Part shown: positions 3,768-23,494 of the stretch, piece by piece
Position numbering within the stretch: the first letter of the stretch is position 1
Layout: every line of letters starts with the position of its first letter
Origin: Pseudofrankia coriaricola
Lineage (GTDB): Bacteria; Actinomycetota; Actinomycetes; Frankiales; Frankiaceae
Length of the DNA: 53,564 nt
NCBI RefSeq assembly: GCF_001854805.1
Contig: NZ_MBLO01000228.1
Location: 46,703 to 100,266, forward strand
Reading direction: 5' to 3'
Position numbers and translations under genes: made by a program
Notes under the pieces: generated by a model
What the model was told of the DNA's origin: nothing
The model's database searches: none
The model's input: the letters and a program-made list of their open reading frames with translations, nothing else

Positions 3768-5495
3768 TCAGATCCAACCCGGGAACCACATGCGGGCGCG
3801 CCAGCCGGAGAGTGGGATCTGCTGGGCGGCGAGGATTGGGTAGAAGTAGGCGAACAGCAGGACGACGGCGATCAGGTAGACGCCGACTGACAGCGCGCCC
3901 ACGAGTCGCCTGGTATCGGACGCCTCGCGCGGCCCCAGTGCGAGGCCGGCGGTCGCGGTGATGCCGAGGACCAGGAATGGCAGCAGCGGCAGCGCGTAGA
4001 AGAAGAACATCGTCCGGCTCGGGACGAGCTCCCAGGGCAGGAACGACGAGGCGAAGCCGACCAGCACCAGCGCGGCCCGCCAGTCCCGCCGGACCACCCA
4101 CAACGCCAGCATCACCACCAGGCAGGCCGTGCCGACCCACCAGACGGCCGGGTTGCCGATCGCCAGGACCTCGCGGGAGCAGCCGCCAGCGGAGGTGCAG
4201 CCCTTCTGGCCGTACGCCGGGCCGTCGTAGTAATAGGGCACCGGCCTGCCGAGAACCAGCCAGCTGAACGGCGCGGACTGCGCCGGGTGCGGCGAGGTCC
4301 TGGTGGTCAGATGCTCGTGGAAGTTGAAGATCGCGTCCTGGTAGGCCCACCAGCCCCGCCACATCGCCACGAACCCGTTGCCGTAGGCGTGGCGGTCGTA
4401 GCCCCCGTCGGTGACGAACCAGCCCGTCCAGGTCGCAAGGAAGGTCGCGATCGGCAGGGGCACATAGCAGCCGAACCAGGCCGGGACATCCCGCCTCAAC
4501 GCCCCCAGGATCGGCTGCCGCGCTCCCGCGGTCCGCCGGGCGCCCGCGTCCCAGGCGATCGCCAGCACCGCGAAACCGAGCAGCGTGTACAGGCCGCTCC
4601 ACTTCACGCCCATCGACGCGCCCAGGAAGAACCCGGCCGCGAGCCGCCAGGGGCGCAAGCCCAGCTTCGGCCCGTAACGAACGTCGCGCTCGCGGGCGGC
4701 CCGTTCGCGCGTGGCCCGGTCGCGGGCGCCAAGGGCCTCCTCGACAGCCGTGCCACCGCCGGCGGACGGGGGCGCGTCCCTGTCCTCATCCGTCGGCACG
4801 GCGGCAAGCGCGGCCGTCCGGTCAGCGAGCTTCGAGCGCCCATAGTCGCGGTCAAGAACCAGGCAGGCCAGCGCCACGATCAGCAGCGTCATCAGGAAGA
4901 TGTCGAGGATGCCGATCCGGCTCTGGACGAACTCCAGCCCGTCGAATGCCAGGAGGAGCCCGGCGAAGCAGCCCAGGATCGTCGACCGGAACATCCGCCG
5001 CGCCGTGCGGGTCAGCACCAGCACCGCGATGGTCCCGAACAACGCCGACGCGAACCGCCACCCCAGCTCGGGACTTCCGTGCACCGCGCCCGAGCAGTCC
5101 GTGTAGCCGAAGAGCTTTTCCGACGCCGCCATGAACCACTTACCCAGCGGGGGGTGCACGACGTAGCCGGGGCCGACGCAGTTCTTGCTGTCCACCTCGT
5201 AGCCGTGGGTCATCAGGCCCCAGGCGTCCTTGGTGTAGTAGACCTCGTCGAAGTAGATGCCCTTCGGCTCCGTCAGCCGCCAGAACCGCAGGATGCCCGC
5301 GACCAGCGTGACGGCGAGCGCGGCCAGCCAGCCGGCGAGGCGGTCGGACGGCATCGGCGGGCAGAGCCGGTCATGCAGTGGCCCGCGCCCGCGCACCTCA
5401 CCGACGTGGTCGCTCACGCCCGCGGGCCCCGCGGCCGCGGGCACGGCCGGGCCGGCATCGGCCAGGGTCGGATGGGCCGTCGTCGTCACGGTCAC
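3768..5495 (-). CDS. pmt: Dolichyl-phosphate-mannose-type protein O-mannosyltransferase
   Basis: This is a polytopic membrane enzyme that transfers mannose from polyprenyl-phosphate-mannose to Ser/Thr of secreted proteins, the GT39 (PMT) family. The 575-aa product begins at GTG 5495 with no clear ribosome site. After a 50-residue Ala/Gly-rich cytoplasmic stretch comes the first membrane segment and then FDEVYY, the catalytic acidic pair of the family. HPPLGKW and the QSRIGILDIF loop follow. A charged Ala/Arg insert near residues 225-275 separates membrane segments. The C-terminus WFPGWI is exposed as in mycobacterial Pmt. It is divergent from rsmI with 171 bp between them, a neighbour pair conserved in actinobacteria. 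Confidence 0.92.
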   Translation of the reverse strand: MTVTTTAHPTLADAGPAVPAAAGPAGVSDHVGEVRGRGPLHDRLCPPMPSDRLAGWLAALAVTLVAGILRFWRLTEPKGIYFDEVYYTKDAWGLMTHGYEVDSKNCVGPGYVVHPPLGKWFMAASEKLFGYTDCSGAVHGSPELGWRFASALFGTIAVLVLTRTARRMFRSTILGCFAGLLLAFDGLEFVQSRIGILDIFLMTLLIVALACLVLDRDYGRSKLADRTAALAAVPTDEDRDAPPSAGGGTAVEEALGARDRATRERAARERDVRYGPKLGLRPWRLAAGFFLGASMGVKWSGLYTLLGFAVLAIAWDAGARRTAGARQPILGALRRDVPAWFGCYVPLPIATFLATWTGWFVTDGGYDRHAYGNGFVAMWRGWWAYQDAIFNFHEHLTTRTSPHPAQSAPFSWLVLGRPVPYYYDGPAYGQKGCTSAGGCSREVLAIGNPAVWWVGTACLVVMLALWVVRRDWRAALVLVGFASSFLPWELVPSRTMFFFYALPLLPFLVLGITATAGLALGPREASDTRRLVGALSVGVYLIAVVLLFAYFYPILAAQQIPLSGWRARMWFPGWI

Positions 5496-15719: not shown

Positions 15720-15867
15720 GGCCTCGAAGCCAGGCCGCGTGTCGGCTCGTGGTCTGGGGTCGGGGTTAGCCTTGGGGGGCGAACTCGTGTGACTGGCGCG
15801 CCGTCCCGACGGGACGGTGACCGGCGGGGGCGCGTTCGGTCAACAAACCGGACCACTAGGAGCCGCC

Positions 15868-16710
15868 TTGCCGGAGCCCACCGCTACCCCGCCGACCGCG
15901 ACCGAGGAAGCGCAAACCGCCACGCGGATGCTCTCCGCTTCCGGGGCGGCGGAGCCCGGCGACACGGCCTCGGCGTCAGCCGTATCGGAGCCGCCCGCCC
16001 TCGATCAGGCCGAGCTCGACCTTGAGTCCGCCCCGGCACGGCGGCGGCCACGGCTGCTGTGGGCACCCCTGGTTGTTCTGGCCGCCGCCGCGCTGGTCGC
16101 GGCGGGGTTTGGCCTGCGCGGGCTGGCCGGCGGTGCCCCGGGCGACGACTCGGTCGACGCGGGCTTCCTGCGCGACATGACCGAGCACCACGCGCAGGCC
16201 GTGCAGATGAGCATGCTCGAGTTCAGCCACGGCGCGGACGAGAACACCATCGCAATCAGCCAGGACATCGCGCTCGGCCAGCAGCGCGAGATCGGGGTGA
16301 TGGGATCCTGGCTCGCCGACTGGGGACTCGGTCAGTCGACCGTCGGCGAGCCGATGCGTTGGATGGGCGGCACCGGCGCCGCGGCCGATGGCCATGACAT
16401 GGCGGGCATGCACGACGGATCCGGCTCGCTGGGCACCCCGGTCGGCACGGACGGAGTCCGGATGCCAGGCATGGCCAGCGGCACGGAGCTGACCCAGCTG
16501 GCCTCTTCCCAGGGGCGGGACAGCGACGTGCGGTTCCTCACGCTGATGATCCACCATCACCGCGGCGGGATCATCATGGCGCAGTTCGCCTCCCAGCACG
16601 CGAGCGAGGACAAGGTGCGCGCGCTGGCTAAGGCGATGGTTACCGTGCAGTCCTGGGACATCTCGCAGATGCAGTTCGATCTACAACGACTAGGAGCCCC
16701 GCCGGCCTGA
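15868..16710 (+). CDS. DUF305 domain protein, membrane-anchored, His-rich
   Basis: DUF305 is a ferritin-like four-helix fold often found in exported, metal-linked proteins; its function is unsettled. The start is chosen at TTG 15868 because AGGAG (15858-15862) lies five bases before it. GTG 15817 is in frame but has only a weak site. The product has 280 aa. An acidic Ala/Pro-rich head is followed by one membrane segment (LLWAPLVVLAAAALVAAGFG) and the external DUF305 domain. The two signature histidine pairs are in MTEHHAQAVQMSMLEFSHG and MIHHHRGGIIMAQF, separated by a Met/Gly/His-rich loop. These could bind Cu or Fe. Confidence 0.85.
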   Translation: MPEPTATPPTATEEAQTATRMLSASGAAEPGDTASASAVSEPPALDQAELDLESAPARRRPRLLWAPLVVLAAAALVAAGFGLRGLAGGAPGDDSVDAGFLRDMTEHHAQAVQMSMLEFSHGADENTIAISQDIALGQQREIGVMGSWLADWGLGQSTVGEPMRWMGGTGAAADGHDMAGMHDGSGSLGTPVGTDGVRMPGMASGTELTQLASSQGRDSDVRFLTLMIHHHRGGIIMAQFASQHASEDKVRALAKAMVTVQSWDISQMQFDLQRLGAPPA

Positions 16711-16987
16711 CGCGCCCCCGTCGAGGGTCGCCCTCGCCGCGACCATCGCGGAAAGTCCACGGCATCCCTGGGCCGACCATGCCGCCAGAAGATCATATTA
16801 TGCGGATTCGGTAGGCTTCCTCCGTTTCGGCGGGCTGCCCGAGCCGCCAAGCGCTCCGGGGAGGTCGGCCGGATGCGCCCGCCGGGACCGCCTTTGCCCG
16901 CCGGCACCATCGCGCTGGCTCGCCAGGCACCGGACAGCCACCGGGGGCACCCGGGCTACCGGTGTCCCTGCTTGTGTGAGGTTCGTC

Positions 16988-18550
16988 ATGTCCGCACTGC
17001 CCGGCCCTGTCCCAGTGCCGTCCCCCCGGACGCGCCGCGGCGCTACCCGTCTGGCAATCACGATGCCAGGGCTGCGCCGCGCCCTGCCAGGGCTGCGCAG
17101 GGTCCTGCCGGGGCCACGGCAGGCAAGCGTCGAGCTGGTCGCCGGGCTGGTCACGGCGCTGGCCCTGATCCCGGAGACCATCTCGTTCTCCGTCGTCGCC
17201 GGAGTGGATCCGGCGGTCGGGCTGTTCACCTCGTTCGTCATCTCGGCGGTGATCGCGTTCACCGGCGGCCGGCCGGCGATGGTCTCCGCGGCGGCCGGCT
17301 CGATGGCGCTCGTCGCCGCCCCGCTGGTACACGCGCATGGCTTCCAGTACCTCATGGCCGCGACGATCGCGGTCGGCATCCTGATGTTCCTGCTCGGCCT
17401 CGCCGGCGTCGCCCGCCTCATCCGTTTCGTGCCGCGGACCGTCATGATCGGATTCGTCAACGCGCTCGCGATCCTGATCTTCCTGGCTCAGATGCCGCAT
17501 GTCTTCGGCCACGGCTGGCGGGTGTACCCGCTGGTCGCGGCGGGGCTGGCGATCCTGTTGATCCTTCCCCGGGTGACGAAGGCCGTGCCGGCGCCGCTCG
17601 CGGCCATCGCCCTGTTGACCCTCGTGACGACGACGTTCAACCTGGACGCGCCGACGGTCGGCGACGAGGGCGCGCTGCTCACCGGCCTGCCCCTGCCCGG
17701 CCTGCCGGACGTCCCGATGACCTGGGAGACCGTCCGGATCCTGCTGCCGTACGTGCTCGCGCTGACCGCGGTCGGCCTGCTGGAGACGCTGCTCACCGCG
17801 CAGATCGTCGACCGGATGACGGACACCCGCCATGACCCGAACCGGGAGGCCTGGGGGCTGGGCATCGCCAACCTCGTCGCCGGGGCGTTCGGCGGGATGG
17901 GCGGCTGCGCGATGATCGGCCAGACGATCCTCAACGTGTCGTCCGGCGGGCGCGGCCGGCTGTCCACCTTCGCCGCAGGCGGCTTCCTCCTGCTGCTGGT
18001 GCTGCCACTGCACGCGATCGTCGGCGTGATCCCGATGGCGGCCCTGGCGGCCGTGATGGTCGTCGTGGCGGCGATGACATTCGAGTGGAACAGCGTGCGC
18101 CCGACCACTCTGCGCCGGATGCCGGTCGGCGAGACGCTCGTGATGGTGGCGACGGTCGCCGTCGTCGTGCCGACCCACAACCTCGCGTACGGGGTGGTCG
18201 TAGGCGTGATCCTCGCCGCGCTGATGTTCACCCGCAAGGCCGCGCACCTGGCGAACGTGACCAGCGTGCTCGACCCGGAGGGCGGCGTCCGGATCTACGC
18301 GGTGCAGGGGCCGTTGTTCTTCGCGTCGACGGGCGAACTGGTGACCGCGTTCGACTACGCCCACGACCCGCCACGGGTCGTGATCGACCTTTCCGATGCC
18401 GACGTGCTGGACTCCGCGGCGGCCGCGGCGATCGACGACGTCCTGCACCGCTACGCGGGGCGGGGCCAGACAGCCGAGATCACCGGCGTCAGTCACGCCA
18501 GCGCGGCCCTGCTGCGCGGCATGACCAGCGCCAAGGCCGCGAGCTCCTAG
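16988..18550 (+). CDS. SulP family anion transporter with C-terminal STAS domain
   Basis: SulP proteins carry sulfate, bicarbonate or related anions across the inner membrane. ATG 16988 follows GTGAGG and gives 520 aa. About 10-12 membrane segments span residues 45-420, starting with ASVELVAGLVTALALIPETI. The first conserved helices and the GGRPAMVSAAAGSMALV segment are typical. A short STAS domain lies at the end: VQGPLFFASTGELVTAF, VVIDLSDADVLDSAAAAAID. The substrate cannot be told from sequence. It stands alone: a DUF305 gene lies upstream and a thioesterase gene 268 bp downstream. CGGTCCGGACCG, a 12-bp palindrome just after the stop codon (18557-18568), may help termination. Confidence 0.9.
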   Translation: MSALPGPVPVPSPRTRRGATRLAITMPGLRRALPGLRRVLPGPRQASVELVAGLVTALALIPETISFSVVAGVDPAVGLFTSFVISAVIAFTGGRPAMVSAAAGSMALVAAPLVHAHGFQYLMAATIAVGILMFLLGLAGVARLIRFVPRTVMIGFVNALAILIFLAQMPHVFGHGWRVYPLVAAGLAILLILPRVTKAVPAPLAAIALLTLVTTTFNLDAPTVGDEGALLTGLPLPGLPDVPMTWETVRILLPYVLALTAVGLLETLLTAQIVDRMTDTRHDPNREAWGLGIANLVAGAFGGMGGCAMIGQTILNVSSGGRGRLSTFAAGGFLLLLVLPLHAIVGVIPMAALAAVMVVVAAMTFEWNSVRPTTLRRMPVGETLVMVATVAVVVPTHNLAYGVVVGVILAALMFTRKAAHLANVTSVLDPEGGVRIYAVQGPLFFASTGELVTAFDYAHDPPRVVIDLSDADVLDSAAAAAIDDVLHRYAGRGQTAEITGVSHASAALLRGMTSAKAASS

Positions 18551-18818
18551 GCAGGACGGTCCGGACCGCCGTCTGGGAGACCGCCGTCCGGAGACCCCCG
18601 CCCGGGCGAGAGCGGCGCGCCGATCCGTGGAGTGGGTCACTGGGGGCGTCCCGCGCGGCCCGCGGCGCCGATAGTGAAAACGGCCACGGCTTCGGTCGGT
18701 GTGCGGATCATCCGCCGACCGCGGTGTCGAGGCCACGCAGGGCCTCCCGGGCCTCCCGGGCCGCGCGGCGCGCCCGCGGGCCAGGGCATCCAGAGCATCG
18801 AGCACGCCTGGGGGTGCG

Positions 18819-19823
18819 GTGGGCACGAGCACGGTCGACGCGCAGGGCACGGCGATCGCCGGGCCGGTCGGCGATCCTGCCGGCCGCCCCGGAGGAACGG
18901 ACGGCGTCCCGCCCGTCGGCGCCGAGGAGCCGCCCACGGAACTCGCCGCGACGCTCCCGCCCGGCTCGTTCCCCCGCCCCGAGTCCGAGCTGTTCAGCCT
19001 CGCCGACGTGCTGGCGGCGCTCGACCTCGCGGGCGACGCGACGCCGCCGCTGCCGGTGCGCGTCCTGCGCAGCCCCCACGGCGGGGTGCTCGCCGCCCAG
19101 CAGCTCGCCCAGCAGGTCGTGCTCGCCGAGCGGCTCGCGCCGGGCAAGTCCACCCAGACGCTGCACACCATGTTCCCCAACTCCAGCCGCTGGGACGAGC
19201 CGCTCGACGTCGACGTCGAGTGGCTCCAGTCGGGCCGCACGTTCGCGAACCTGGCGTTGACGTTCCGCCAGGGCGGCCGGGCGATCAGCCGCGGCGACGT
19301 GCTGCTCGGCGCCGACGCCCCGGACTTCGTGCGGCACGAGGCGGCGGCGCCCGAGCCCACCGACGGCCCGGCCTCCGCCCGGCCGGTCGACTACCCGTTG
19401 CTCCCCTGGGAGGTCCGGCTGTCGCCGGGCCCTGGGCCGTACAGCCTGGACGTGTGGCAGCGGATCCCCGGTATCCCCGCGGACCCGGCGCTGGGCCGCG
19501 CGCTGGTCGCCTTCGCGAGCGAGCCGTGGACCGGGCACCATGTGGCGAACAGCCATTTCCAGCGGGGCACGGCCAGGTTGGCGCCGGGCGAACGGCTGGC
19601 CGCCGCCGTGCTCGCCCAGACGGTGACGTTCGTCGAGGACCTGGACGTCGGGGAGTGGCACCTGCTGCGGGTCGACTCGCCGCACGCGGGCCACGGGCGG
19701 GTGCTCGGCCGTGGCCGGGTCTACACCGCGGACGGGAGGCTCCGTGCCGTCTTCGAATGCCTGGGCATGCTGCGTGCCCTCCCCGCGAAACCGACCGCCG
19801 CTCCCCCCGGGGCCCCTGCCTGA
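18819..19823 (+). CDS. TesB-like acyl-CoA thioesterase (double hotdog)
   Basis: The product has two hotdog domains. Residues 60-160 contain PHGGVLAAQQLAQQ, TLHTMFPNSSRWDEPLD and the antiparallel strand TFANLALTFRQGGRAIS. The second half has PADPALGRALVAFASEPWT and ends in a strand with GRGRVYTADGRLRAVFECLG. This matches acyl-CoA thioesterase II-like proteins, which hydrolyse acyl-CoA to fatty acid and CoA. GTG 18819 is chosen (334 aa) since the longer frame from 18699 adds only Arg/Ala-rich sequence. The stop is at 19823, and the peptide operon begins 195 bp later. Confidence 0.82.
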   Translation: MGTSTVDAQGTAIAGPVGDPAGRPGGTDGVPPVGAEEPPTELAATLPPGSFPRPESELFSLADVLAALDLAGDATPPLPVRVLRSPHGGVLAAQQLAQQVVLAERLAPGKSTQTLHTMFPNSSRWDEPLDVDVEWLQSGRTFANLALTFRQGGRAISRGDVLLGADAPDFVRHEAAAPEPTDGPASARPVDYPLLPWEVRLSPGPGPYSLDVWQRIPGIPADPALGRALVAFASEPWTGHHVANSHFQRGTARLAPGERLAAAVLAQTVTFVEDLDVGEWHLLRVDSPHAGHGRVLGRGRVYTADGRLRAVFECLGMLRALPAKPTAAPPGAPA

Positions 19824-20018: not shown

Positions 20019-20138
20019 ATGCACTCGCTCGACATGCACACTGACGATGACGACCTCGTCGTAGCCGTCGAAAGGCTGTCCGAGGTCCAGGACCGCCACG
20101 ACGCCGAGCACTCCGACAGCGACGGAAGCGACGGCTGA
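20019..20138 (+). CDS. 39-aa acidic peptide, candidate modified-peptide precursor
   Basis: This small gene starts at ATG 20019, six bases after AGAGGA (20007-20012), and ends at TGA 20136-20138. The peptide begins MHSLDMHTDDDDLVVAVERL and ends SEVQDRHDAEHSDSDGSDG. It has 11 Asp and 4 His, no Cys, Trp, Tyr or Phe, and no signal peptide. A hydrophobic/amphipathic middle (DLVVAVERLSEVQ) could be a recognition helix and the His/Asp/Ser/Gly tail a core. The JmjC oxygenase starts 52 bp downstream on the same strand. JmjC-type enzymes often hydroxylate Asp, Asn, His or Arg, so the tail would suit such a partner. That the peptide is modified is inference; I recognise no described precursor family. 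Confidence 0.6.
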   Translation: MHSLDMHTDDDDLVVAVERLSEVQDRHDAEHSDSDGSDG

Positions 20139-20190
20139 CCGCAGCGAAATTCCGATCGAAGACGGCTGGTCGACGCGTCCCGAGCCGACC

Positions 20191-21450
20191 TTGGGATCTT
20201 CTGCCGCGGAAAAAAGAACACTCGCGACGGAGCATCTTCTGGTATGCGGTCTCGAGGGCGCGCTCGGCTGGCCCGATGTCGCTCCGCTGGGGCGCCAGTT
20301 CGGGCGAGGGCGGCTTGAGGACCCATCACTCTGTGACCGGCTGATGACCCCGTCGCGGCTTCTCGACATCGTGACGAGACGCCGGCTCGAACCACCCCAG
20401 CTGCGCCTCTTCCAAGACGGTCGCGAGCTCCATCCAAACGCTTTTCTTCGCCCCCAGGTGAACCGGCGCGGCCAGACGCTGCGCATGGTGGACACCCCGG
20501 CGCTGGAAAACCTGCTCGATACCGGCGTGACGCTGGTTCTTGACGCGGCTGAAATATTTGATCCCGCCCTGGAGGTCGCCACCCGCGCGCTGCGCTGGTG
20601 GTCCCATGAGGTGGTACAGGTCAACGCCTACCTGACGACCCGCTCGACCGGTGGCTTTCCACTCCACTGGGACGATCACGATGTGGTCGTCGTCCAGCTC
20701 GCGGGGAACAAGACCTGGGACGTCCGGAGCCATTCCCGGCGGGTACCGATGTACCGGGATGCCGTGCCGAACTCGGTCCCGAGCGAGGAGGTGGTCTGGC
20801 GGGGCACTCTCACGCCGGGCGACGTCCTGCACATCCCGCGCGGGCACTGGCACCAGGCAACGCACGCGGACCACGAGGAGCCGCTGAGCCTGCATCTCAC
20901 CTTCGGCTTCGTCAAACGTACCGGCATCGACTGGCTGGCCTGGATCGCCGACCAGGCGCGCGAACTGGAGATCTTCCGGCGCGATCTGATCCGTTCCGGT
21001 TCCGATGAGGAGCGGGAGGCCGAGCGCGCGTGGCTCGAGGCGGCAGCCGTGGAGCTGCTGCGCTCCCGGCCACCGGCCGCCTTTCTGACCGACCGAGAAC
21101 GGTCACGGCCCCCCGCGCGGCACGCGCCGGCGCTGCCGGCCGCGCACGAGCCGGACGTCGTCGTCTGCGTCACCGAGTTCGCCCCCGACGTCGAGCGCGC
21201 CGGTGGTGACCTCGTGGTCTACGCCGGAGGTCGAAAGATCACCGTACGGGAGCGGGCCGAGCAGGCGCTGGCGCTGCTGCTCAGTGGCTGCCCGATCGAC
21301 CTGGAGCTGGCGGGCGTGGAATGCGGGATCAACGTCAGGCCGCTCGCCCAGATCCTCATCCAGGAGGGGATATGCACAGGCCTGACCGACGAGTTGTCCT
21401 CGGCCTATACCGGACTCGTCACCGGCGGGACCTCCTGGAAGCTGCCCTAG
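20191..21450 (+). CDS. JmjC/cupin-4 type Fe(II)/2-oxoglutarate oxygenase
   Basis: The 419-aa protein has the double-stranded beta-helix of ROX-type JmjC hydroxylases. Residues 120-160 lead into FPLHWDDHDVVVVQLAGNK, giving the HxD pair His159/Asp161. The second iron ligand is in GDVLHIPRGHWHQA (His221). The metal triad is therefore complete. A helical region follows and then a C-terminal winged-helix-like part (KITVRERAEQALALLLSGCP). Family members hydroxylate amino-acid side chains of proteins or peptides. The start is uncertain: TTG 20191 is the first usual start but has no good ribosome site. The 3' end overlaps the aldo/keto reductase gene by 79 bp. Confidence 0.85.
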   Translation: MGSSAAEKRTLATEHLLVCGLEGALGWPDVAPLGRQFGRGRLEDPSLCDRLMTPSRLLDIVTRRRLEPPQLRLFQDGRELHPNAFLRPQVNRRGQTLRMVDTPALENLLDTGVTLVLDAAEIFDPALEVATRALRWWSHEVVQVNAYLTTRSTGGFPLHWDDHDVVVVQLAGNKTWDVRSHSRRVPMYRDAVPNSVPSEEVVWRGTLTPGDVLHIPRGHWHQATHADHEEPLSLHLTFGFVKRTGIDWLAWIADQARELEIFRRDLIRSGSDEEREAERAWLEAAAVELLRSRPPAAFLTDRERSRPPARHAPALPAAHEPDVVVCVTEFAPDVERAGGDLVVYAGGRKITVRERAEQALALLLSGCPIDLELAGVECGINVRPLAQILIQEGICTGLTDELSSAYTGLVTGGTSWKLP

Positions 21451-22286
21451 CGCACGGCGTCCGGGACCTGGACACCGCGTTCAACTACGCCGGTTTCGCG
21501 TCCCACGCCCGGCTCGCGGCCGCCGCCGCCGACCTGCTGCCCGAGTTTCACCTCTCGACGAAGGTCGGGTTCTTCCCGGCGCCGGCCGGCGGCGCTGGGC
21601 AGGAGCCCGGCATGGCGGGTCGTCGGGAGCACTCCCTGGACCCGGCCCGGCTGCGGGCCGCGCTCGAGACGAGCGCCGACAAGCTGGGCAGAGCGCCCGA
21701 TGTCGTCTTTCTGCACAACCCGGAACGGACCCTGCGGGCGGCCGGGCCCGAGCATGGCCACGACCTCTTCCTGGCGGCCGCGGAGGCGCTCGCCGACGCG
21801 GCCCGGTCCGGGCTCTGCGGCGCCTGGGGCGTCTCGACCTGGGACGCCCAGCCGCTCATCGACGCGCTGTGCGCCGGCGGCACCGCGGCGCCACCCCGGC
21901 CGGGGCATCTGATGCACCGCGCCGGCGTGCTCGTCGGGCCCGACGCGCTCGCGGCGGCGGAGACGCTCGCGCGCCTGCTGGGCGTGGACGTCGGTGGACG
22001 CTGGGCGATGAGCCCGTTCAACGGCGATACCCGCCAGTCCTTCTGGGAGGACCTGCGTGTCACCGCGCTGCTCGGCGACCCGCCACCGGCCGGCGTCAGC
22101 ACGGCGCAGGCCGCGTTCCGGCTCGCCTACGAGCTGCCGCCGGTCACCCGGGTGGCCGTCAGCACGAACGACCCCGCCCATCTGGCGGAACTCGCAGGCG
22201 CCGCGCGCCTGGACGTCGACCACGCACGAGTCCAGCGATACCGGACCCTCCTGGAGAATCGCCAGCGTCTCGTCGACGCGTCGTAA
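21372..22286 (+). CDS. Aldo/keto reductase
   Basis: The start ATG 21372 is inside the end of the JmjC gene and has its own strong site AGGAGG (21362-21367), so the two are probably translationally coupled. The 304-aa TIM-barrel protein keeps the full catalytic tetrad of the superfamily: Asp34 and Tyr39 (DLDTAFNYAG), Lys64 (LSTKVGF) and His115 (VVFLHNPE). The C-terminal segment VAVSTNDPAHLAEL corresponds to the NADP(H)-binding loop, though the usual G-x-S/K-R signature is weak. It reduces or oxidises a carbonyl/alcohol. Next to a hydroxylase it could act on the hydroxylated product. Confidence 0.88.
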   Translation: MHRPDRRVVLGLYRTRHRRDLLEAALAHGVRDLDTAFNYAGFASHARLAAAAADLLPEFHLSTKVGFFPAPAGGAGQEPGMAGRREHSLDPARLRAALETSADKLGRAPDVVFLHNPERTLRAAGPEHGHDLFLAAAEALADAARSGLCGAWGVSTWDAQPLIDALCAGGTAAPPRPGHLMHRAGVLVGPDALAAAETLARLLGVDVGGRWAMSPFNGDTRQSFWEDLRVTALLGDPPPAGVSTAQAAFRLAYELPPVTRVAVSTNDPAHLAELAGAARLDVDHARVQRYRTLLENRQRLVDAS

Positions 22287-22340: not shown

Positions 22341-23423
22341 TCAGTGGACCGGACCGGCGGCCAGGAGGCTGTCCGTCTCCTCGGTCACGTCGACTTTCCA
22401 GTGGTAGACCGGCTTGGACAGCGCGGCCGTGCAGGTGTACTGGATGGCGGCGTCGTCCCGCTGCTCGCGGCGGAGCTCGATACGCCAGCGCCGGACGCCG
22501 TCATCCACCAGCACGTTGTACCGAGGGACAGCCTCCGGACGCGCGGGCGTCGCCATCGACGACGCCGCCCCCAGGGATCCTTTCCGGATCGCCGATGCCA
22601 ACCCCCCGGAAAGCAGGGACTCGGAGCCAGTTGAGCGCGCGGGGAGCACTCCGGCCGGGATGTGGTGACCAACGCCGACCGGGCCGACGACGCTGATGGC
22701 CGGCAGGTCCGCCGGATCGCGCCGGTGGAACTTCTCCCGGTACCAGATCTCCGCCACCGCCTCGGCGGGCGTGACGCCGAGGCGTCCCCGCAGGTGGGCG
22801 AGCGGGAGGAGCCCCTCCTCGACGAGCTCGCGCAGGTCCTCGTCCGCCATGTCGTCGAGCCGGCCCAGCAGGTAGCCGCTCGGCAGCAGGACGGCCGTCG
22901 GCGCGAAACGATCCCCGCCGAGATGGCTGACGCCGTAGATGGGCGCGTCAGGAACGAGCTGCTGGACCCGGCGGATGAAACCGCCGCCCCGCACACCGCA
23001 GCAGGTGTCGTGCCGGCCGTGGATGCAGACGCCGATGAACTGCGGCACCGTGGTGGGCGCCGCGGCGTGCCAGGCACCGTCCGCCGATCGCGTGCTGATC
23101 TGCCTGCTGTATGTGTCCCAGACGATCGGGCTCTCGGTCGTCGGGCGGCCCGGGTACGGGCGGTAGTAGAGCGTCTTGAGACGGGTAGACGGCGGCAGTC
23201 GGAAACCGTCCGGTTCCGCCGGGCGCACCGCCTGAGGCCACGGCCCCGGAACCGGGAGGAAATGGAAGGCCTCGAAGTTCGGGATGGTTCCGCGCAGCTC
23301 CTCGTCGACCAAGCGCGACTGCGCGCCGCACCGGGCGAAGGTAGAATCGCCCATCACCGCGCGCCCATCCCCGCGCGCGGCTTCCGGCCCCGGGAAGTGC
23401 TGGGCCGTGGGAGCTTCTGCCAC
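22341..23423 (-). CDS. Sucrase/ferredoxin-like thioredoxin-fold Fe-S protein
   Basis: This 360-aa protein belongs to the Suc/Fer-like family (relatives of Aim32 and 2Fe-2S thioredoxin-like ferredoxins). The signature is FIGVCIHGRHDTCCGVRGG near the middle, preceded by an N-terminal CGAQSRLVDEELRGT motif and followed by YGVSHLGGDRFAPTAVLLPSG. The latter is the second conserved motif of the family. The C-terminal 90 residues form an extra domain. Start GTG 23423 lies six bases after GGAGG. The gene converges with the JmjC-AKR operon, leaving 54 bp. Two abutting iron-box-like elements lie 34-71 bp upstream, so iron repression is likely. Confidence 0.85.
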   Translation of the reverse strand: MAEAPTAQHFPGPEAARGDGRAVMGDSTFARCGAQSRLVDEELRGTIPNFEAFHFLPVPGPWPQAVRPAEPDGFRLPPSTRLKTLYYRPYPGRPTTESPIVWDTYSRQISTRSADGAWHAAAPTTVPQFIGVCIHGRHDTCCGVRGGGFIRRVQQLVPDAPIYGVSHLGGDRFAPTAVLLPSGYLLGRLDDMADEDLRELVEEGLLPLAHLRGRLGVTPAEAVAEIWYREKFHRRDPADLPAISVVGPVGVGHHIPAGVLPARSTGSESLLSGGLASAIRKGSLGAASSMATPARPEAVPRYNVLVDDGVRRWRIELRREQRDDAAIQYTCTAALSKPVYHWKVDVTEETDSLLAAGPVH

Positions 23424-23456: not shown

Positions 23457-23494
23457 TTAGGTATACTTGACCTTCTTAAGTTCACCTAACTTTA
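23457..23494 (-). promoter_or_regulatory. Two abutting IdeR/DmdR-type iron boxes
   Basis: Two 19-mers sit end to end upstream of the Suc/Fer-like gene: 23457-23475 (TTAGGTATACTTGACCTTC) and 23476-23494 (TTAAGTTCACCTAACTTTA). Against the 19-bp DtxR/IdeR consensus (TTAGGTTAGSCTAACCTAA), about 12 and 15 positions agree by eye. Position and tandem spacing fit repression of the minus-strand promoter by iron-loaded IdeR/DmdR. The sites are in the most AT-rich patch of the neighbourhood. Confidence 0.6.

Follow-up and report, generated by a model that had tools for sequence, protein, structure and literature searches.

A stretch of 53,564 nucleotides from Pseudofrankia coriaricola (contig NZ_MBLO01000228.1, positions 46,703 to 100,266 of the forward strand), referred to here as the window, carries a compact cassette of three genes which probably specifies a modified peptide. 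These encode a peptide of 39 residues, a JmjC-type Fe(II)/2-oxoglutarate (2OG) oxygenase and an aldo/keto reductase (AKR). The 39-codon open reading frame (ORF) of the peptide has the sequence AGAGAGG located 7 nt 5′ of its ATG, the probable TTG start of the JmjC gene (20191) lies 52 nt 3′ of the peptide stop, and the first 79 nt of the AKR gene overlap the end of the JmjC gene. An earlier reading of this DNA, made from its letters without database searches (the sequence-only reading), had given the same coordinates, spacing and overlap for the three genes and all of these were confirmed. The features of the cassette, in window positions, are as follows, RRE being the RiPP recognition element and RiPP a ribosomally synthesised and post-translationally modified peptide.

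20019..20138, forward strand: precursor-like peptide gene, 39 aa, MHSLDMHTDDDDLVVAVERLSEVQDRHDAEHSDSDGSDG (upstream homologues and substitution ratios)
20052..20078, forward strand: leader motif DLVVAVERL, the strand proposed to pair with the RRE-like domain (best-conserved leader block; fusion model)
20112..20117, forward strand: core Ser32-Asp33 (Asp invariant; Ser found with the AKR)
20130..20135, forward strand: core Asp38-Gly39 (second near-invariant Asp)
20191..21450, forward strand: JmjC Fe(II)/2OG oxygenase, ROX (NO66/MINA53/YcfD) fold (probable TTG start)
20665..20673, forward strand: HxD half of the JmjC iron site, H159 and D161 (invariant; NO66 alignment)
20851-20853, forward strand: third JmjC iron ligand, H221 (invariant; NO66 alignment)
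21157..21408, forward strand: predicted JmjC C-terminal RRE-like winged helix, residues 323-406 (AlphaFold2 secondary structure)
21372..22286, forward strand: AKR, ATG at 21372, with intact tetrad (PF00248)

The 39-codon gene is real, and its company with the JmjC gene recurs. A search of 97 genomes (that of P. coriaricola included) with the JmjC gave a match at 1e-10 in 32 of them. Homologous peptides were identified 5′ of the JmjC in the window and in the loci of its 12 closest relatives (13/13), the distance from the peptide end to the start of the JmjC match being 44-121 nt in the 12 loci outside the window. The same was found in 80/80 named actinobacterial loci, these being the 80 kept of 193 relatives from a JmjC-alignment scan of species genomes; several genomes are common to the two sets. 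The JmjC of one relative, G005, is 94% identical to that of the window. Among 393 sampled genomes, a peptide match (1e-5) was obtained in 15, and these are precisely the 15 that carry this JmjC (1e-100). Given the upstream homologues in 13/13 and 80/80 loci, the pairing is far beyond chance. The sequence-only reading had suggested looking for co-occurrence of short acidic peptides with this JmjC-AKR pair across genomes, which is what was found, and had counted JmjC-AKR pairs without an upstream small gene as evidence to the contrary, of which there were none among the pairs examined.

Purifying selection on the peptide frame was also evident. The median ratio of non-synonymous to synonymous substitution rates (dN/dS) was 0.232 among 29 equal-length Streptomyces peptides, the largest group, with 0.233 for the JmjC (18 of the 29 peptides' loci) and values >1 for the peptide in both shifted frames. 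Core residues 31-55 had a median of 0.185 and leader residues 1-29 one of 0.293, both portions being under selection as expected of a RiPP pathway. Medians of 0.05, 0.16, and 0.24 were obtained for the groups of 51, 52, and 53 residues respectively, and comparison of the window peptide with that of L076 showed nine synonymous differences in 23.8 sites and nine non-synonymous in 93.2 sites. The conservation and selection whose absence was to have spoken against the gene are therefore both present. No Pfam or NCBIfam match above cut-off was found for the window peptide and five relatives.

Alignment of the 80 unique peptides (out of 95 sequences) shows a leader with the consensus L..aVe.L..v.dR.d, its pattern being summarised as LVVAVExL...DR, followed by an acidic core. 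Leu20, Arg26, and Asp33 (window numbering) are identical in all 80, while Asp38 is kept in 79/80. The core varies in wording and length, with SDSDGSDG in the window, SDNAGSSGDAPWPGGDGN in many Streptomyces and SDGAQDAGGDGHG...GDGLN in several Pseudonocardiales. Hydroxylation on either Asp or His had been proposed for the peptide. Since Asp33 is invariant (80/80) and His is unconserved, Asp is the likelier target; His, which varies among relatives in core and leader, is disfavoured. The motif DxDG was also considered as a general feature of the subfamily and rejected, not being conserved in the Streptomyces cores.

The JmjC protein matches PF08007 (JmjC_2) with an E-value of 1.6e-20 (73.3 bits, curated cut-off 22). 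Its iron triad H159-x-D161...H221 aligns with that of NO66 and is invariant in 44/44 aligned JmjC sequences, the window included, in keeping with the complete HxD...H site first read from the letters. The AlphaFold2 model has a full-length ROX fold with a C-terminal winged helix, where four strands are followed by three helices, this being the RRE-like order (topology definition from PMC12710340). For a natural read-through fusion of peptide and JmjC, AlphaFold predicts the homologous LVAVEE as a strand, with a predicted local distance difference test (pLDDT) value of 81 for the block and with the peptide core and linker disordered. The leader strand may dock on the winged helix of the JmjC, the site of docking being a putative one. 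No RRE structure appeared among the matches listed for the JmjC fold, lists which a single domain can fill.

The AKR (PF00248, 2.1e-16) has a match at the JmjC 3′ end in 77/80 named loci. Its tetrad (D34/Y39/K64/H115), described as intact in the sequence-only reading, is conserved as Asp, Tyr, and Lys in 77/78 rows (one gap) and as His in 78/78. Presence of the AKR appears to track a single residue of the peptide, the Ser before Asp33. This Ser precedes the invariant Asp in 90/95 peptides, the rows of which were scored as AKR-present or second-locus, and the five peptides with Ala or Gly instead are exactly those of the five AKR-less loci (G001, G002, G003 locus 1, L098, L136). It is the sole well-conserved column that is invariant in 76 unique peptides and changed in all 4 unique AKR-less ones. 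Searched for across the entire genomes of G001 and G002, the AKR subfamily gave no match at 1e-25; in G003 the sole copy (1e-25) adjoins a second peptide of the SD type. A further 45 AKR-bearing Streptomyces loci, from species partly overlapping the first set, were SD in 45/45 by a loose pattern count.

The same tendency is seen among distant ROX JmjC relatives. In the f17 family (33-37% identity), 23 genomes had a JmjC match and 16 loci were examined, 14 of which have a short peptide upstream; the other two are L217, with a peptide of the window type, and L221, which is cut by a contig end. In the sister peptide of this family the leader is of the VEDL type, TSRD is present, and the core ends in DGTD[GS]SSDFI or nearly so. 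All 14 AKR-less f17 loci with this peptide are non-Ser (12 Gly, 1 Gln, 1 Asn), and the two distant loci with an AKR, L275 and L217, are both SD. In L217 the AKR was noticed prior to reading the peptide, which then proved to be SD. On JmjC trees of 102 and 110 proteins, the AKR and Ser traits each change four times and agree in 3/3 supported independent contrasts (4 on all branches), with a sign test p of 0.25. A reaction of the AKR at this Ser would be consistent with the covariation. The window-type peptide of L217 (1273-1395, forward strand) has the core PSDGGSTGKSDLNDG, in a locus with JmjC, AKR, and kinase. The loci of the sister family are L207-L216, L218-L220, L269-L273, L276, and L277.

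The kinase is a usual fourth gene of the cassette that was absent from the earlier account. When the neighbours of the 80 loci were clustered (examples of 12 clusters being read and 7 Pfam-scanned), an APH-like kinase gene was found in 72/80, with 68 at the standard place and usually convergent with the AKR; the clustering missed at least L115. An HxDxxxxN catalytic loop with a following Asp is the motif of APH-type kinases, and here it occurs as HxDxxxxN...DWED, with H182, D184, N189, and D199 invariant in 30 members. PF01636 is matched by 22/30 of these at E-values up to 0.1 (best 2.1e-6), and no significant match was found among solved structures. In the source genome the kinase is missing from the window locus, and there is a second peptide locus elsewhere.

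L003 on contig C125, 4967-5103 (reverse strand) and 3827-4675 (forward strand): second peptide paralogue beside an APH-like kinase, without JmjC or AKR

In two relatives, genes for peptide, AKR, and kinase stand together with no JmjC, and the peptide is also found with the kinase alone. From these combinations it follows that the peptide is usually paired with the JmjC, AKR and kinase being separable. In L274, a distant JmjC is followed by a 519-aa APH-domain protein (4037 onward).

These genes probably form a RiPP-like cassette, one that would represent a new RiPP-like class, with the JmjC hydroxylating a core Asp and the AKR working on the Ser beside it. That the peptide is the substrate, as the sequence-only reading had it, is supported by the predicted RRE-like domain, the modelled leader strand, and the Ser that appears to track the AKR. 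The LVVAVExL motif of the leader, as a beta strand, would dock on the JmjC winged helix, and the enzyme would then hydroxylate the acidic C-terminal core, the likeliest residue being Asp33 and perhaps also Asp38. The AKR may next act on the Ser32-Asp33 unit, for example by interconversion of a Ser-derived carbonyl and alcohol, and the APH-like kinase may phosphorylate a core hydroxyl. Leader removal and export would be carried out by genes elsewhere, and the cassette would be expected to yield an oxidised peptide, small and acidic. If true, this would be a RiPP-like class with a very small gene set, present in about one in eight sampled Streptomyces species (47/392), and would provide ROX-type JmjC enzymes with a bacterial peptide substrate of their own, its leader being read by the winged helix. 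One Ser tracking one reductase would also offer a clean genetic handle on the reaction.

A number of observations weigh against this interpretation. Two JmjC loci, L268 (Streptomyces) and L274, have no recognisable peptide upstream. The 49-, 50-, 54-, and 56-residue groups of peptides gave dN/dS values of 1.36, 1.17, 0.72, and 0.84, which were set aside because they mix peptide types and were compared unaligned. The link between AKR and Ser is below significance because there are too few independent contrasts. It also has irregular cases: the second locus of the source genome is SD and has the AKR in trans only (the sole 1e-25 copy being in the window), the Streptomyces locus L258, with a truncated JmjC match, is SD without an AKR, and in L106, L115, and L138 the peptide is SD but the AKR match is divided between two frames, a split which suggests that the gene may be broken there. 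With regard to the kinase, the protein of the source genome taken alone has no Pfam match, and no kinase was matched at 1e-10 in G001, G002, G004, and G006. Finally, no known leader protease or exporter was recognised among the recurrent neighbour clusters, these being the clusters examined; the sequence-only reading likewise had none in view.

The distant ROX relatives allow the question to be put more widely. In 19 distant ROX control loci (L015-L033), the leader motif was found in 0/15 of those that could be parsed. However, Asp-rich repeat ORFs lie directly upstream of the JmjC in 18/19 (15/19 by a strict pattern, with L015, L026, and L028 added by reading and none in L025), many of them beginning MALDDDDMTT and continuing with DGGADGGA-type repeats. 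Some could be frame artefacts, being low-complexity and very GC-rich, but a ribosome site and a common N-terminus are present in many. A gene of the Suc_Fer-like (sucrase/ferredoxin-like) type directly follows the JmjC in 16/19 of these loci. A broader and tentative proposal is that the actinobacterial PF08007 JmjC group might consist of peptide aspartyl hydroxylases with dedicated Asp-Gly-rich substrates, whose products would be beta-hydroxyaspartate-rich ligands of iron or other metals served by the iron-sulphur reductase neighbours, with AKR and kinase further oxidising the Ser-Asp unit in the present cassette. In this wide form there would be at least three substrate architectures, namely the SD...DG core, the GGDSDGTDGSSDFI core, and the long DGGA repeats. 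Asp-rich ORFs beside the JmjC could then explain the role of many uncharacterised actinobacterial oxygenases.

A Suc_Fer-like gene is also the next neighbour of the cassette in the window.

22341..23423, reverse strand: Suc_Fer-like gene (PF06999), convergent neighbour and possible accessory
23457..23494, reverse strand: iron-box-like sites 5′ of the Suc_Fer-like gene

The sequence-only reading had spoken of an iron-box-controlled gene as the next neighbour. In the window the only sites before this Suc_Fer-like gene have 5-6 mismatches to the iron-box consensus; eight relatives have sites with 3-5 mismatches before the corresponding gene. In a control of 20 shuffles of one locus, the best site had 4 mismatches once and otherwise 6 or more. 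Iron-box control of the cassette itself was not found, the sites preceding neighbours and not the peptide.

These neighbours bear on a somewhat doubtful alternative, that of a ribosomal metal-binding peptide in which beta-hydroxy-Asp made by the JmjC would be a hard-metal ligand and the Suc_Fer-like or FhuF proteins would reduce or release iron. The Suc_Fer-like gene is adjacent to the cassette or within approximately 1 kb in 8/12 relatives' loci. Together with the Asp-rich ORFs, the Suc_Fer-like genes beside the distant JmjC proteins make Asp a likely target and lend the metal idea some support. In the sister family an FhuF gene lies downstream of the JmjC in 5/7 long-flank loci (by clustering, one being scanned), four of them adjacent and one at a distance of about 3.2 kb, and iron-box-like sites lie 5′ of FhuF; an S9 prolyl oligopeptidase occurs in 7/7 (clustering, one example scanned). 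The core of the window peptide itself has DSDGSDG. However, the DxDG motif within it is not kept in Streptomyces, no Suc_Fer-like match was found in the fetched stretches of subfamily loci outside Frankia, the iron-box-like sites are placed before the neighbour rather than the peptide, and iron-sulphur neighbours might serve only to keep the JmjC reduced.

It is unlikely that the peptide is an unmodified regulator or adaptor which binds the JmjC, with the enzyme acting on another protein. The ROX oxygenases NO66, MINA53, and YcfD (PF08007) belong to the same fold family and act on ribosomal proteins according to their entry titles, which for NO66 and MINA53 means hydroxylation; a leader-domain contact alone would explain conservation of the N-terminal half of the peptide, and the recurrent neighbours include no recognised protease or exporter. 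Unlike in those systems, the JmjC here is encoded beside a dedicated peptide, with an AKR and usually a kinase, and this genetic linkage points to the peptide rather than a ribosomal protein as the JmjC substrate. A role as substrate fits better than one as adaptor: by dN/dS, conservation of the core equals or exceeds that of the leader, a single Ser of the core goes with AKR presence, and cores rich in Asp-Gly are found again both behind a different type of leader and in the form of repeats.

It is highly improbable that the JmjC cleaves or rearranges the backbone (for example by hydroxylation of the Gly alpha-carbon in Asp-Gly) with the AKR reducing the resulting carbonyl, for although Asp-Gly units occur in all three precursor types and AKRs naturally handle carbonyls, Asp33 is invariant and the following Gly is not conserved, AKR-less loci retain JmjC and peptide, and no precedent was present in the literature passages covered.

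With regard to known systems, thioamitide and class V lanthipeptide pathways have PF01636-type kinases which work with a lyase partner, whereas no such lyase was recognised among the recurrent neighbours here. Methanobactin and the bufferins are peptidic metallophores, Cys-based and made by other enzymes, and resemble the present product as small modified metal-related peptides only if it binds metal. A 2OG-dependent macrocyclisation in RiPPs was reportedly described by Xia and colleagues (Xia et al.) in 2025 and could matter. JmjC proteins of PF08007 with RRE-like domains have been described, the closest bacterial homologues of which occur in RiPP-like contexts (Bregman et al., 2025; PMC12710340). 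As is predicted for the JmjC of the window, the RRE-like fold is fused to the JmjC in these proteins; however, the portions of the article covered do not assign them a precursor, an AKR, a kinase, or a substrate residue, and the word 'aldo' does not occur in its main text. In the biphenomycin-like RiPP pathways, BpmG and PbsQ are JmjC/cupin-like hydroxylases, with PbsQ adding 16 Da to Orn (PMC12257519, in the passages covered). Like the window JmjC they are hydroxylases of this type in a ribosomal peptide pathway, but on the same passages they are tailoring enzymes in pathways with a multinuclear non-haem iron-dependent oxidase (MNIO) and radical S-adenosylmethionine (SAM) enzymes, with aromatic cores and other precursors. 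No description of a JmjC/AKR/peptide cassette was recognised among the literature matches listed, mostly outside subscription papers, and ten short stretches of the peptide sequences gave no occurrence in literature likewise mostly outside subscription papers. As far as the literature covered goes, the cassette is apparently undescribed, the nearest mention being the remark on RRE-like JmjC proteins in PMC12710340.

The sampled Streptomyces species counted above (47/392) were identified with the JmjC subfamily at 1e-100. Among JmjC genes of this family, that of the Streptomyces locus L159 (5971-7237) is interrupted by approximately 1.2 kb, and L258 has no kinase match in addition to its truncated JmjC match and lack of an AKR match. 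A phage origin was rejected, there being no match in phage records at 1e-10, as was a plasmid origin, with 5/72,556 plasmid records matching at 1e-40. A tblastn search of plasmids with one Streptomyces peptide gave no match, a search which is insensitive because a peptide of another type is present on a plasmid (L187). On a Streptomyces plasmid (L188, 5229-9179) a distant JmjC is accompanied by a pair of M16-type peptidases, an MFS transporter, and an acidic but unrelated peptide of 51 aa.

Other recurrent neighbours of the 80 loci (L075-L154) include a protein of approximately 440 aa with no Pfam match in 40/80 and a PF00144 serine hydrolase in 23/80, located on the 5′ side of the JmjC at distances of about 2.8 kb and 4 kb, with regulators or ATPases in fewer. 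The former resembled an XRE-type regulator by eye, an assignment which is not claimed here as no Pfam match was obtained. In the window, genes for a DUF305 protein, a sulfate-permease-type transporter, and an acyl-CoA thioesterase are located upstream of the cassette (15817-19823). The order of the DUF305 and sulfate-permease genes is kept in 6/6 same-genus loci fetched, and the thioesterase is present in 5/6; as these upstream genes keep their order, the cassette has a stable neighbourhood within the genus.

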